From assembly GCF_024713975.1 (NCBI RefSeq), contig NC_091100.1, forward strand, positions 25,433,501 to 25,497,500: a stretch of 64,000 nucleotides of DNA, read 5' to 3'. This stretch comes from Paralichthys olivaceus (lineage: Eukaryota > Chordata > Actinopteri > Pleuronectiformes > Paralichthyidae). The notes under the pieces were generated by a model. That model made no database searches. It was not told the origin of the DNA and worked only from the letters and a program-made list of their open reading frames with translations. How positions within the stretch are numbered: position 1 is the first letter of the stretch; each line of letters begins with the position of its first letter. Position numbers and translations under genes: made by a program. Positions 10,101-16,100 of the stretch are shown piece after piece.

Positions 10101-13100
10101 ACAAATATTTTCAGCAACCCCCTCACATTAAAGACAGGCATAATGTTTGTTCTCTGATACAATTGAAAGGAACAAAGCAGATTAGAATATTATAGTACTT
10201 ATATTATCTCTAAATGTCACAAAACTAACCTGAAAATATGGTTTGAAAACAGAAATGTATAGACACACAGTGCAAATATTTTGAAGGTTCTCGCTCAGCT
10301 TTATTTCTTACAATAACCCAATAAAGATCACCCAGATATCATTGTCCCGATCCGCACCAAAACTGTTTCTGTATATACCTAATTTTTTCATTAAGATCTC
10401 TGGATTATTTGCATAAATGTTAAAAAAAATTCTTGCAATAAGAAAGAAATTCTTGATTTTCTGATGCGATGACTGTGTAAACAGTAGACTAGACTACTAA
10501 ACTGAAGGAATGTTGCATTGATAAGGAAGCAGCAGCATTCCTAATGGGAACCTGTAACATTTCTGGATTCATGCAACTGATCTGTCCCTCCTCCCCAGGT
10601 GTAAATACTGGCATTATGATGACAGACTGCTGACCTCTAGTGTGGTGATCGTCTTCCATAATGAAGGCTGGTCTACACTGATGAGAACCATCCACAGTGT
10701 CATCAAGAGGACTCCCAGGAAATACCTGGCTGAGATAGTCATGATAGACGACTTCAGCAACAAAGGTGTGTTGATATCCTCACATGTGAATGGTTGGAAA
10801 AATTTGAATCTTACATTAAATGTGATTATTCCTCAAACAATTTAGCAAAATTTTACAAAAATACAATCACCTCATTATTAACTATGTTGTCATTTTATCG
10901 CCACATTTATTCTGGGTTTTATCTGTTGGTGGTTTATAAGTTAAACTGTGCTTCACTAACTAAGTCTGCAGCTGTTCTCTGACCCGTTTGTGCGTGCTTG
11001 TGCGTGTGTGTGTGTGTATGTGTTTGTGCGTGTGTAGTCCATCTGAAGGAGCGTTTGGAGGAGTACATCAAGCAATGGAATGGTCTTGTAAAACTGTTCA
11101 GAAATGAGAAGAGAGAAGGCCTGATCCAGGCTAGGAGTATAGGAGCAGAGAAGGCCAATAAAGGACAGGTATCATCTGCTCTTACTGCTCTATCACAGCT
11201 ACTGTTGTTGACCTGCTGTGTGTAAATATTCATCCCTTTTTTTTTTGCCTTCCAAATGTCTTTATTACAAAAGTGCACATACAGTTAATAAGTTTGGTCC
11301 CTCAGCTTAAAGGTTTTCATCATCACAGACATCCGAGTGTTAGTGTGTGTTCCTTTTTGTAGGTGCTGATCTACCTGGATGCTCATTGTGAGGTGGGAAT
11401 CAACTGGTATGCTCCACTGGTTGCTCCCATTTCAAAAGACAGGTAGCACAAATGCACACACATGCACGCACACGTGATCATAGCCATATAAAGAATGGTC
11501 ATCATCCAGAAGACATTGTTTACAGACTAGTTTATTAATTGCAGCCAGATTATTACATTATGATTTTTTCTTTTCAGCACATCTCCTCTTTAATACATTT
11601 GGTACTTTCTTTGTGTTTGATGCAGTATGGAAAAATACAATAACCTGCAGTTGGTATATGCAGGCAGGCACTTCATCAGTATTGTATCCAGTTGTTTATA
11701 TATAAATGTATATCTGTAATTTACCTTTATTCATTGTAAAGCCTGATCAAAGACACAATCATCCCTATGTTCCATACAGGTTATACTGTCTGTCCTGATG
11801 CAGTGACACTTGTATCACTTATTAGCTCTTAAACCTCACATATTTCAGACAGTTAATCACACAGGGTGGATGATCTTGGCCATACGTTGTTTCCATATTT
11901 TATATCTCGCATAGATTTTACACTGATGAGCCAGAACATTAGGACCACCTCATCTAATTGGCTGTTGGTCCTTTGCGTGCTGCCACAACTCCTCCAACCC
12001 AACAAGGCATGTACTCTGCAAGACCTCTGAAGGTCGCCTCTGGTATCTGGCTCAAGACATTAGCAGCATGTCCTTTAAGTGATGAAAGTTGTGGGGTGGA
12101 GCCCCCGAAGATCACCCTCGTTTAACACCCTGCTGCTGGTTCGTGGTGGATCCCTCCTTAGAACACTGTCAGCAGGCACTCACTGCTGCTGACTAGGAGC
12201 ACCCTATGAGCCTTGCGTCATCTGGCCATAACAATTTGTCCCACAGAACAGTAGATTCAGTGTTTACATTACAACTGAGAAGGTTCATGTTGACCACGAG
12301 AACAGAGTTTGCTTACTGTTGAATACAGACCTGACATGTGTAGCAGTTAAAGGAATATCCACATTATTTGTGTCATCTATGATTTTGTATCATACAATCA
12401 TTCGAGATAAGCGAGGACTGCACAGAATTGATCAATGGTAGTTGCTGCATATTGATGCCTGTTAGATTTCTGTCTGACCTGACTTCGAACTGCTCTGGCA
12501 GCATGTGTTATGTAGCCAAGATTATTGTCAATGCACCTTGATCTTCATGAGAGCCACAGCTGCTCTCTACAGACTGGAAGTGAAGATACTTAAAGGAACT
12601 GCAGATGTAAGGCCTGAAAGTGTAATTGCCTGGTCTCAAGATGAATTTGAACAAGCCTAATGTTCTGGCTCACTGGTGTGCATAAGAGGGCTCTGGCCCA
12701 GAGAGAGGGTGCCACTTTTTTAACATCTACCAAAACCACTGCATTGAGCACTTTATCTTCTAATACTGAGCTACTCTGAGTGGAGTAATAACTCAAGACA
12801 TGTCTGAGGTCCACATACAGACTGTGTGTGTGTGTGTGTGTGTGTGTGTGTGTGTGTGTGTGTGTGTGTGTGTGTGTGTGTGTGTGTGTGTGTGTGTGTG
12901 TGTGTGTGTGTGTGTGTGTGTGTGTGTGTGTGTGTGTGTGTGTGTGTGTGTGTGTGTAGGACAGTATGTACAGTGCCCCTGATAGACTATATAGATGGGA
13001 ATGAGTACACTATGGAACCCCAGCAGGGTGGAGATGAGGATGGCCTGGCTAGAGGAGCATGGGACTGGAGCCTACTCTGGAAGAGAGTCCCACTTAGCCA

Positions 13101-16100
13101 GAGAGAGAGGGACAATCGAGAGCATACCACCCAACCCTACCGGTACACGATCCTGAGCCAACATTCTAACAGTCTTCCCTGTTTTGTTTGTGTCTCCCAT
13201 CCCTCCATCCCACCTGTCCTCTGCTGTGTTTCACTCTGTCTCGGTCTCTGACACCCTTCCCATGTCTTTGTGTCTCGCTGGCACTGCTGTCTGTATTTGC
13301 CTGTTTTTTCCCCCATCTTGTACACCTCCCCCCATGTATCTTGTATGCATGGCCCCACCCCCATTCCGCCAGAACGGTGTGCACGGTGCCTCTGGTTGAC
13401 TCCATCCATGGCCAGAAGTTCACCATCGAGGCCCAGGGTGGCGGGGACAAGGATGGCTTTGCTAGAGGAGCCTGGGATTGGAGCATGCTCTGGAAGCGAG
13501 TTCCTCTGGGAGAGAAAGAACATGCACTCAGAAAAACTCAGACTGAGCCATATAGGTACAAAAAACCGGTGCCTCCTGACTAATGGCAGTGTCAATACCA
13601 ACGACAAACAGCTTATCTTGACAAGGGCTAGCAACAATAACTTTCAGACCTCTACTGCATTACTAACGTGTAGCTGACCCTACACCAACTCATGTCAGCA
13701 CAACTGCCTCAAAATCAATCTCAAAAACAAAAATACAATGACCGGGGCATACAAATGGCTGATGTTTAGTACACACACTTAGTACATATAAATTAGGAAA
13801 ACTTGAAATATAACAAATACACATTGATGCTAACCTTTGGTGCATTCTACAAGTAACCAACTAACCCATACCCATCTTCCCCGATGGGGGTTACAACTCT
13901 TCTGTTCATTGGCTGTTTGTGGTCTAATGTCTCGACTACTGGGAATTATTTGGTATTTCACCATGATGTGTTGTGGGCCCTGTCTCTTTATTTAATGTGA
14001 ATTATTCTCATACTTCATCTCTCGTCTTACTCGGTGATGGCTTTGGTGTAGTTAAGGCCAATTTAGCAAATCCCTTCTGTTGTGGAAGTTTTTTGGAAGC
14101 TGGTGAAAGGAGAACTCAGGCAGCAGCTGATGTCTTATGCAGAAGATTTGAATGTCGACTTGATGCATCAAGGAGACCAGAAGGTGAAACAATATAACAA
14201 CACTAACAATACTAACATGTGAAACTGTCACCCCCAAGTCTGAATATGTCTCCTGTAGCATCCCCAAATATCTTCCTCTACTTGCGTCACCCATTCTAAC
14301 AGCACATCCATGAATGGCTAGAATTGCTGTCACTCTCTGTTACATGTTGGTGTTTGCATCATATTGGATGGTTAAGCCTATAATAAAAACACATCTGAGT
14401 TAGATACTGTATGCAAGTCCCTAAGCGTAGACACTACAATGTACTGTTGGATGACCCTTTATCTATAACCTGACTTTGGGTAGTGCTTGGAGAGAGAAGG
14501 GAGTATGTGTGGATAGTTAAAAAAAAAAAAAAAGATTTCTTTTTGGGGGGGTCCAACTTGAAGGGCTATGACTTCAGTGGAAAATTCGTCCGAATCTAAA
14601 AGCTGTGGGACTGATGAGAGAAGTTGGGACAGGTCTAATGCGGAACTTCTGGTGTGAATGGGGCTTGGACTGGGGCACCATCAACCCCACCTTCCCCAAA
14701 TCACCTTTTCATCCATCAAGTTTTGCTGTCAGTCTTTTCTTCCCTCTGATTTGCTTCCACTAATTTCTTGTTTTGCTTGATTCTCTGTCATTCTGCTCTT
14801 GTTTTTTGTGTTGTCATTGTTATTAATACACTGATACTGCTTTAACTAATGTTAGACAGAAAATAATTCAGCCCAAGCTAAATAAAGAAGATAATGTAAT
14901 TATTTGATACAGAACCTGGTAAACCGAGTAGCCTTGGCACGCTGATGCACGTATATGAATATGTCTGTCTGTGGATGTGTGTGTCTCTCTCTATACCCAC
15001 AGGTCTCCAGCTATGGCAGGTGGTCTCTTTGCTATAGAGAGAGACTTCTTCTTCGAGCTGGGTCTATATGATCCAGGATTGCAGATATGGGGAGGAGAGA
15101 ATTTTGAAATATCATACAAGGTAAACAGTCCGGTTAAACCACAGAATTTCTAAACACAGATCATTTCAAGTCTTCAGAGGAATGTTCTCTGTTTCTGAAT
15201 ATTTCTGTAGATCTGGCAGTGTGGGGGCCAGCTGCTCTTTGTACCATGTTCTCGTGTCGGACATATCTACAGACTTCAAGGATGGCAAGGCAACCCCCCA
15301 CCTGCACACGTTGGATCCTCACCCACTCTGAAGGTAGAATTGCTTTGTGTGGATTCAAGACTTAAAGTAAAAAAGACAAATATTCTATTGCTTTTTATTT
15401 GTAAGGCTATGTTTGAGCATGGTTCTCTGCTCTCTCTCTCAATTTCCCACTTACTGTCCTATCAATCAAAAATTACCAAAACCATAAGTGCCCTCATTTA
15501 TTCATCTGCTCACCGGTATTAGACCTTTTTAGATATTTAGATGTTCTGGATCTGATCAGATGTTGTTGCATGTTGTCTGTTCCTCTCAATACTTACTGTA
15601 TATTATAAAAGCACATCTGTGTGTGTGTACAGAACTATGTTCGTGTGGTGGAGGTATGGTGGGATGAATATAAGGACTACTTCTACGCCAGTCGTCCTGA
15701 AACTCTCACTCTAGCCTACGGAGACATCAGTGAGCTTAAACGCTTCAGGTATAACATTACTACCAAACAACATATACCTTTTATGTATTTCTCATGGATA
15801 TTCTGACTTAATTGTCTCCATTCTTTTGTATTACTTGATCACACTCTTCTTCATCTCTAAATCTCTCACTTTACTCCCACTTCCCCACCTAAAGGCCCCT
15901 TGTACATCATGTACAGGTAGCTGCTTTCACACATGTACTGCAACCTTGAGCTGTTCCAGACATTACCCAGAGGAGCTGTATGTGTGAATGCAAATGTCTG
16001 AATCAGGCTGTCACTCAGAAGCGGAGGGTCTGTGCTTCGACCCCTGGCTTACCCAGTCTGCGTGCCAAAGTGTCCTTGGGCAAGATATTGAACCCCAAAC

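Follow-up and report, generated by a model that had tools for sequence, protein, structure and literature searches.

Whether a vertebrate glycosyltransferase gene can hold two interchangeable versions of one segment of its catalytic domain, and how a cell would then use one of them at a time, is the question raised by a 64,000-nucleotide stretch of the Paralichthys olivaceus genome (NCBI RefSeq assembly GCF_024713975.1, contig NC_091100.1, positions 25,433,501 to 25,497,500 of the forward strand; this whole stretch is called the window below). Its plus strand carries GALNT7, and human GalNAc-T7 (PDB 6iwq) maps by tblastn to exons from about 6277 to 18964, among which exon 7 is present in two neighbouring copies, here named 7a and 7b. 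Our gene model consists of exons 3-15, with exon 2 seen only as a tblastn match and exon 1 not located; when joined, these exons form a single open frame of 568 codons, terminal stop included, with 7a and 7b alike. Within the modelled exons the identity to human T7 is 176/220 upstream of exon 7 and 234/275 downstream of it, and in a tree of the exon-7 stretch 7a, 7b and human T7 cluster with support 100/99 against T10, T1, T2 and PGANT9. Judging by its best match, which is human GalNAc-T7 along both the catalytic and the lectin domain, and by its intact frame, the gene can be taken as the GALNT7 orthologue. As the answer to the question we favour, with somewhat more confidence than doubt, the explanation that 7a and 7b arose long ago by tandem duplication and are used as alternatives, in which a distant branch point makes the two exclusive, the choice is regulated, and the exchange changes the acceptor groove of the enzyme.

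In fact, the exon pair itself can be read directly from the DNA. Exon 7a (12960 to 13142, plus strand; IDYIDGNEY...SLLW...DNREHTTQ) and exon 7b (13373 to 13555, plus strand; VDSIHGQKF...SMLW...LRKTQTE) are each 183 bp long, open and in the same phase, and are separated by an intron of 230 nt (13143-13372). In the tblastn comparison with the window both align without gaps to residues 262-323 of the human GalNAc-T7 chain (62 residues), 7a at 67.7% (E 1.9e-24) and 7b at 71.0% (E 5.5e-26), and the ends of both alignments coincide with AG/GT splice sites. Counted by whole codons, the identity to human is 40/60 for 7a and 42/60 for 7b, and that between the two copies is 38/60, or 39/61 when the common split Arg codon is included. 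The upstream exon 6 (DAHC...ISKD; 11363 to 11442, plus strand; 92.6% by tblastn to human T7, donor CAG/gtagca) and the downstream exon 8 (SPAMAGG...EISYK; 15003 to 15120, plus strand; placed by tblastn to human T7 and a frame check) both join in frame to either copy. Being adjacent, homologous, in the same phase, of in-frame length and with their own splice sites, 7a and 7b are a tandem duplicated exon pair, lying between the DxH and SPAMAGG motifs of the catalytic domain. All of this agrees with the preliminary description, which had reported from the letters alone two adjacent 183-bp exons of one phase around a 230-base intron, with 39 of 61 residues in common and intact frames. Moreover, the frame stays open in all four splice combinations (6-7a-8, 6-7b-8, 6-7a-7b-8 and 6-8), each exon being 183 bp, so nonsense-mediated decay cannot enforce a choice and an exclusivity imposed by the reading frame is ruled out.

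With 7a as query against the species' own 588-Mb genome, the seven best candidates scored are 7a, 7b, two with E = 0.0018 and 0.004 and three with E above 1, and around each of the last five (about 1.5 kb) a repeat search turned up no further copy of the exon. The candidates at 0.0018 and 0.004 are GALNT10-type exons, 43/48 and 42/47 identical to human T10, which lie about 163 kb apart on one chromosome (C15) and possibly belong to two linked GALNT10 genes. Relatives of exon 7b were sought in viral contigs, where none of four pattern matches was confirmed. The exon 6-7-8 alignment was likewise compared with prokaryote genomes, in search of contaminant fish DNA, and there none of 41 matches was confirmed.

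As to age and constraint, the two copies differ at 19, 9 and 35 sites of the first, second and third codon positions respectively, each of 60, and the NG86 estimate gives a nonsynonymous distance (dN) of 0.26 with a synonymous distance (dS) that is saturated and thus undefined. The 60-nt intron flanks of the two copies, compared with each other, are 20% and 30% identical. A relative rate comparison with human assigns 7 changed sites to 7a and 5 to 7b (p = 0.77); 7a is thus decaying no faster than its neighbour. With synonymous sites saturated, flanks unrelated and 7a evolving no faster than 7b, the duplication is therefore old and both copies are constrained. Neutral drift starting from 7b was simulated at four distances, with 4000 runs for each, and none gave an open exon with 40/60 identity to human; together with the relative rate, and within this one fish genome and human T7, these simulations point to purifying selection on both copies. 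Both have diverged from human more than the other modelled exons have (40/60 and 42/60 vs 410/495; Fisher p = 0.005 and 0.02), and the counterpart exons of GALNT10 type are close to human T10, so the GALNT7 pair is unusually diverged. The exon tree gives no order among human, 7a and 7b, with a human branch of 0.085 that is short beside 0.34 and 0.25; the counts of common sites by pairs (human and 7a 5, human and 7b 7, 7a and 7b 3) likewise do not decide the order of the duplication relative to the fish-tetrapod split.

How, then, would the two exons exclude each other? The preliminary description called them probably mutually exclusive, and the layout of the intervening intron makes this plausible. 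Upstream of 7b there is a zone of 198 nt without AG (13173 to 13370, plus strand), the longest of 14 acceptors measured in the gene; 7a follows with 137 nt, and the other 12 have 17-69 nt. The zone is well beyond the length of at least 100 nt before the downstream exon by which an AG exclusion zone is recognised (PMC1431707), a length that is reached in 838 of 67,334 human introns according to the same source. Just before it stands TTCTAAC (13164 to 13170, plus strand, adenosine at 13169), which matches TACTAAC in 6/7 positions and which motif scoring and the rule of PMC1431707 predict as a distant branch point; its adenosine lies 27 nt past the 7a donor and 204 nt ahead of 7b. It is followed directly by an AG, which is near enough to be bypassed, and then by a pyrimidine-rich stretch; the intron as a whole has 165 C or T in 230 positions. 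When the 20-70 nt ahead of the exon are scored, where branch points usually lie, 7a comes last of the 14 acceptors (-6.68) and 7b third from last (2.14), as is expected if both use distant branch points. Altogether the intervening intron looks like a distant-branch-point intron.

Known systems give this layout its meaning. For the exclusive exons 4a and 4b of human OGDH, the branch points are 25-41 nt from the donor and the steric threshold is about 50 nt (PMC7969005); in a survey of human exclusive exons the distance from donor to branch point was below 50 in 57 of 629 clusters, i.e. 9% (PMC5740500). OGDH 4a/4b and alpha-tropomyosin resemble the pair here in the long AG-free zone before the downstream exon and, if TTCTAAC is the branch point used, in its position near the upstream donor (PMC7969005, PMC1431707), and differ in that their branch points were mapped experimentally, whereas the one of GALNT7 is predicted and has a permissive competitor of equal score. 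By the same principle, with moderate support from the sequence, the branch point of 7b would lie so far upstream, 27 nt from the 7a donor, that U1 and U2 small nuclear ribonucleoproteins could not assemble together; such crowding as in OGDH and alpha-tropomyosin would let exon 6 join either 7a or 7b. The layout makes a sharp prediction, namely a branch point at 13169. Incompatibility between U2 and U12 introns is ruled out as the cause: the donors of the three introns concerned all begin with GT and are of ordinary type (gtagca, gtacac and gtacaa), not ATATCC or GTATCC. The latter two are the consensus of U12-type donors.

The choice between the exons would further need regulators, and for these the indications are weaker. 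Directly before the 7a acceptor there is a pure (TG)67.5 microsatellite of 135 nt (12823 to 12957, plus strand; Tandem Repeats Finder, 100% matches), within an AG-free zone of 137 nt (12821 to 12957, plus strand) whose best branch-point match, inside it or in the 20 nt before, is TACAGAC with a score of 3.08; stronger matches (6.23 and 5.89) are found further out, 197-237 nt from the exon, and AGs intervene. 7a thus has a poor acceptor behind a long UG tract, which is a candidate site for TDP-43 or CELF; on this view 7b would be used by default and 7a under regulation. TDP-43 is known to bind UG repeats at splice sites, better when they are longer, and to silence CFTR exon 9 (PMC3985631). That exon is alike in having a TG repeat before its acceptor in a polymorphic tract read by TDP-43, and differs in that 7a of GALNT7 has 67.5 repeats and no T tract, the likeness here being one of sequence alone. 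The donors of both copies are also weak: that of 7a (CCG/gtacac, 13143 to 13148, plus strand) is the second weakest of 13 donors scored and that of 7b (TAG/gtacaa, 13556 to 13561, plus strand) the weakest, with 2.61 and 1.81 by approximate weights vs 3.8-9.29 for the other 11. Another candidate is TGCATG, 21 nt before 7b (13346 to 13351, plus strand), an RBFOX-type motif that occurs just once in the three introns around the pair. Finally, a CA-rich stretch right after the exon-6 donor (11443 to 11477, plus strand) is predicted to pair with the TG tract better than any other window tried: the RNA duplex with the 41-nt window at 11443 reaches -45.7 kcal/mol, and the next best non-overlapping window of intron 6 reaches -25.2, which is weak evidence since CA and TG tracts pair readily. 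As regulatory elements, the TG tract, the weak donors, TGCATG and the CA-rich stretch are leads only.

Several observations weigh against this explanation of the splicing. One is a competing branch-point candidate, CTCTGAC (13246 to 13252, plus strand, adenosine at 13251), which matches TACTAAC in 4/7 positions and is scored just like TTCTAAC (7.16 vs 7.12); being 109 nt from the 7a donor, a permissive distance, it would allow 7a to be joined to 7b, so the exclusion may leak. It is for this reason, and because double inclusion is in frame, that "probably mutually exclusive" stands as plausible and not as more. The scores for donors and branch points come from approximate weight matrices, and branch-point scores discriminate poorly in any case, as the best conventional matches of the single-copy exons 11 and 3 are just 1.26 and 2.66. 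Moreover, composition shuffles of this pyrimidine-rich intron gave an AG-free zone of at least 199 nt in 303 of 20,000 cases (1.5%; the observed zone is 198 nt, so this is slightly understated), and 128 of 5000 shuffles had an equally good branch-point match no more than 50 nt from the donor. The window has 3974 AG-free runs, of which one exceeds the zone before 7b (217 nt, at 54253) and two approach it (196 nt at 13852 and 190 nt at 54061), at places without a known splice site. As for 7a, its long AG-free zone is simply the TG repeat; TG-rich acceptors stand also before exons 5, 10 and 12, so a TG tract alone is no sign of regulation, and the 7a acceptor may be too poor for any use.

This last possibility leads to a reading in which 7b is constitutive and 7a, functional once, is now barely spliced because the TG expansion has separated the branch point from the AG by 137 nt or more and left the acceptor without a pyrimidine tract. 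We consider it unlikely, with a chance still large enough to be taken seriously. It agrees with branch-point matches that do not exceed 3.08 within the AG-free zone of 7a or shortly ahead of it, with the conventional-window score that is the worst of 14, with an acceptor pyrimidine fraction of 0.52, with the weak donor gtacac, and with the C-terminal part of 7b (LRKT.TEPYR) being nearer to human. However, 7a is fully open and nearly equal to 7b in its identity to human (40 vs 42 of 60), pyrimidine fractions as low are found at exons 10 and 12 (0.48 and 0.52), and the donor of 7b is equally weak. Pure TG tracts mutate fast; the one allele in the assembly says little on the long-term use of the exon. 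Similarly, the two copies could be alternative cassettes without strict exclusivity, so that single, double and zero inclusion all occur, as the stop-free translation of the four combinations, the permissive branch point at 109 nt and a length of 230 nt, which suffices for a normal intron, would allow. This we regard as rather improbable, for double inclusion would add, and skipping would remove, 61 amino acids in the catalytic core beside SPAMAGG, giving proteins that should not fold, and the position of TTCTAAC fits steric exclusion.

If instead both exons were always included, GalNAc-T7 would have a repeated segment; this too is in frame, and it is very improbable, as the five solved GalNAc-transferases aligned, human T7 included, have a single copy of the segment and a second copy would presumably duplicate part of the catalytic core. 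The chance that the duplication is an artefact of assembly or haplotypes is negligible. The same window does contain near-identical tandem duplications (98.5%) that are possibly of that kind; the two exons, on the other hand, agree in just 73% of 137 nt, their flanks are unrelated and their synonymous sites saturated, and no assembly error yields such a divergence, for which we rejected this candidate.

Returning to the favoured explanation of regulated alternatives, the exchange of 7a for 7b would matter by what the segment encodes. The main, hydrophobic peptide contacts of GalNAc-T2 are Val255, Leu270, Phe280, Trp282, Tyr284, Phe361, His365 and Phe377 (PMC4432651), and by alignment the exon 7 stretch encodes five of these eight positions, from Val255 to Tyr284. 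At the Val255 position 7a has Tyr and 7b has Ser; Val is found there in the five solved enzymes aligned (T7, T10, T2, T1 and PGANT9) and also in the two GALNT10-type exons of the own genome. The net charge is -4 for 7a, +1 for 7b and +1 for human, and the difference sits in the N-terminal part (-7, -2 and -5, respectively). By part, the two copies are identical at 15/17 positions in the core, 18/28 in the N-terminal part and 6/16 in the C-terminal part. The swap would thus alter the acceptor groove at the Val255 position and put the charge of 7a five units below that of 7b. From this, different glycopeptide preferences are expected of the two enzymes, the 7a form favouring acceptors that are more basic; the analogy behind the predicted preference is the charge effects reported for PGANT9 and PGANT5. 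GalNAc-T7 has been described as strictly glycopeptide-preferring, and its catalytic domain as having a putative pocket for GalNAc (PMC10901373). On the other side, the two copies agree at four of the five groove positions (A, W, R, P), and the change of acceptor recognition expected in the preliminary description is accordingly reasonable and weaker than was claimed there. A bolder version, which we think improbable, adds to the exclusive groove switch of this "follow-up" GalNAc-transferase a tuning of the dose of the acidic 7a form by the length of the TG repeat: the fast-mutating microsatellite would lie between branch point and AG, and its alleles would shift which mucins get dense O-glycans.

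Among related systems, a close one is PGANT5, the Drosophila orthologue of GalNAc-T1, whose isoforms A and B, like the pair here, vary the catalytic domain by alternative splicing; a swap of 60 residues (398-457) is involved, and a single residue shifts the preference for charged mucin peptides (PMC12776162, a preprint). PGANT5 differs in being of T1 type and in exchanging the catalytic flexible loop and helix I-II, downstream of the stretch between DxH and SPAMAGG. The exon 7 segment of GALNT7 ends before the position of T2 Ala307. It lies upstream of the contacts Phe361-Phe377, which are presumably located in the catalytic flexible loop, and so is not a loop swap of the PGANT5 type. PGANT9 of Drosophila, invoked in the preliminary description as the precedent, is a poor one: its isoforms A and B use alternative exons 8A and 8B that differ mainly in charge and change the acceptor preference, yet these encode about 30 residues of the lectin alpha repeat, not of the catalytic domain (PMC6115407); PGANT5 is nearer, though in a different segment. 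Human GALNT13, C. elegans gly-5 and pgant5 are listed as convergent cases of tandem duplicated exon substitution among GalNAc-transferases (PMC9741552), and differ from the GALNT7 pair in being of T1/T13 type.

We found no description of the GALNT7 exon pair, or of any GalNAc-transferase switch shown in this segment, in the open-access full texts among the papers listed, with annotation databases and supplements outside this scope, and the statement of the preliminary description that the case is undescribed is to that extent not contradicted. The main texts of PMC5740500 and PMC4465641 have no mention of GALNT genes, and that of PMC9741552 has one, of GALNT13, supplements again lying outside the scope; in the available portions of PMC11134892, PMC5665647 (where GALNT7 is not mentioned) and PMC8472655 nothing was found on exon choice in GALNT7. 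The skipping of human GALNT7 "exon 6" in endometriosis (PMC13039441) was considered as the same event and set aside, as one exon is skipped and the text available mentions no homologous alternative; the exon number of that paper could not be matched to exon 7 here. There is a fair chance that the duplication is already annotated somewhere, because most such events predate the fish-tetrapod split: 236 substitutions of tandem duplicated exons have been listed in human, more than 90% of them with orthologous events in teleost fish (PMC9741552). To sum up, the preliminary observation is right and its reading mostly right, with the mechanism sharpened by the layout of the intron. A second mouse GALNT7 isoform may be listed in UniProt; if it were the same event, the pair would be old and annotated already.

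Besides the exon pair, the window shows other features. The lectin domain of GALNT7 includes a micro-exon of 31 bp (17640-17670), whose length is not a multiple of three, and skipping it would therefore shift the frame. An exact 26-bp copy of exon-10 coding DNA (15636-15661) is found at 16535-16560 in the intron after exon 10, and is too short for an exon. A tandem segmental duplication of 4.1 kb (18072-22165 and 22162-26238, 98.5% identical) copies the last coding exon of GALNT7 (18858-18964), with a second copy near 22948; it is either recent or an artefact of assembly or haplotypes. Further downstream there is a second large direct duplication (45642-50645 and 57067-62792) in three pieces with 95-98% identity, 11.3-12.2 kb apart, and a diverged tandem array (53343-54448) with a copy offset of about 96 bp, within which the longest AG-free run of the window, noted above, begins.

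As for what the pair means, each exon has kept an intact frame in the common phase under constraint, and none of the splice combinations breaks the frame. Used as alternatives, the two would form a switch of a known kind, for which no description in GALNT7 was found in the texts covered. The division of acceptor sites among GalNAc-transferases has so far been explained mostly by about 20 genes. The GALNT7 pair offers a compact natural experiment, in which two closely matched groove walls in one enzyme differ at the Val255 position and by five charges. If there are indeed two GALNT7 enzymes that differ in one wall of the groove, splicing would add a tissue-level layer to mucin glycosylation in vertebrates, comparable with that of pgant5 and pgant9 in flies.

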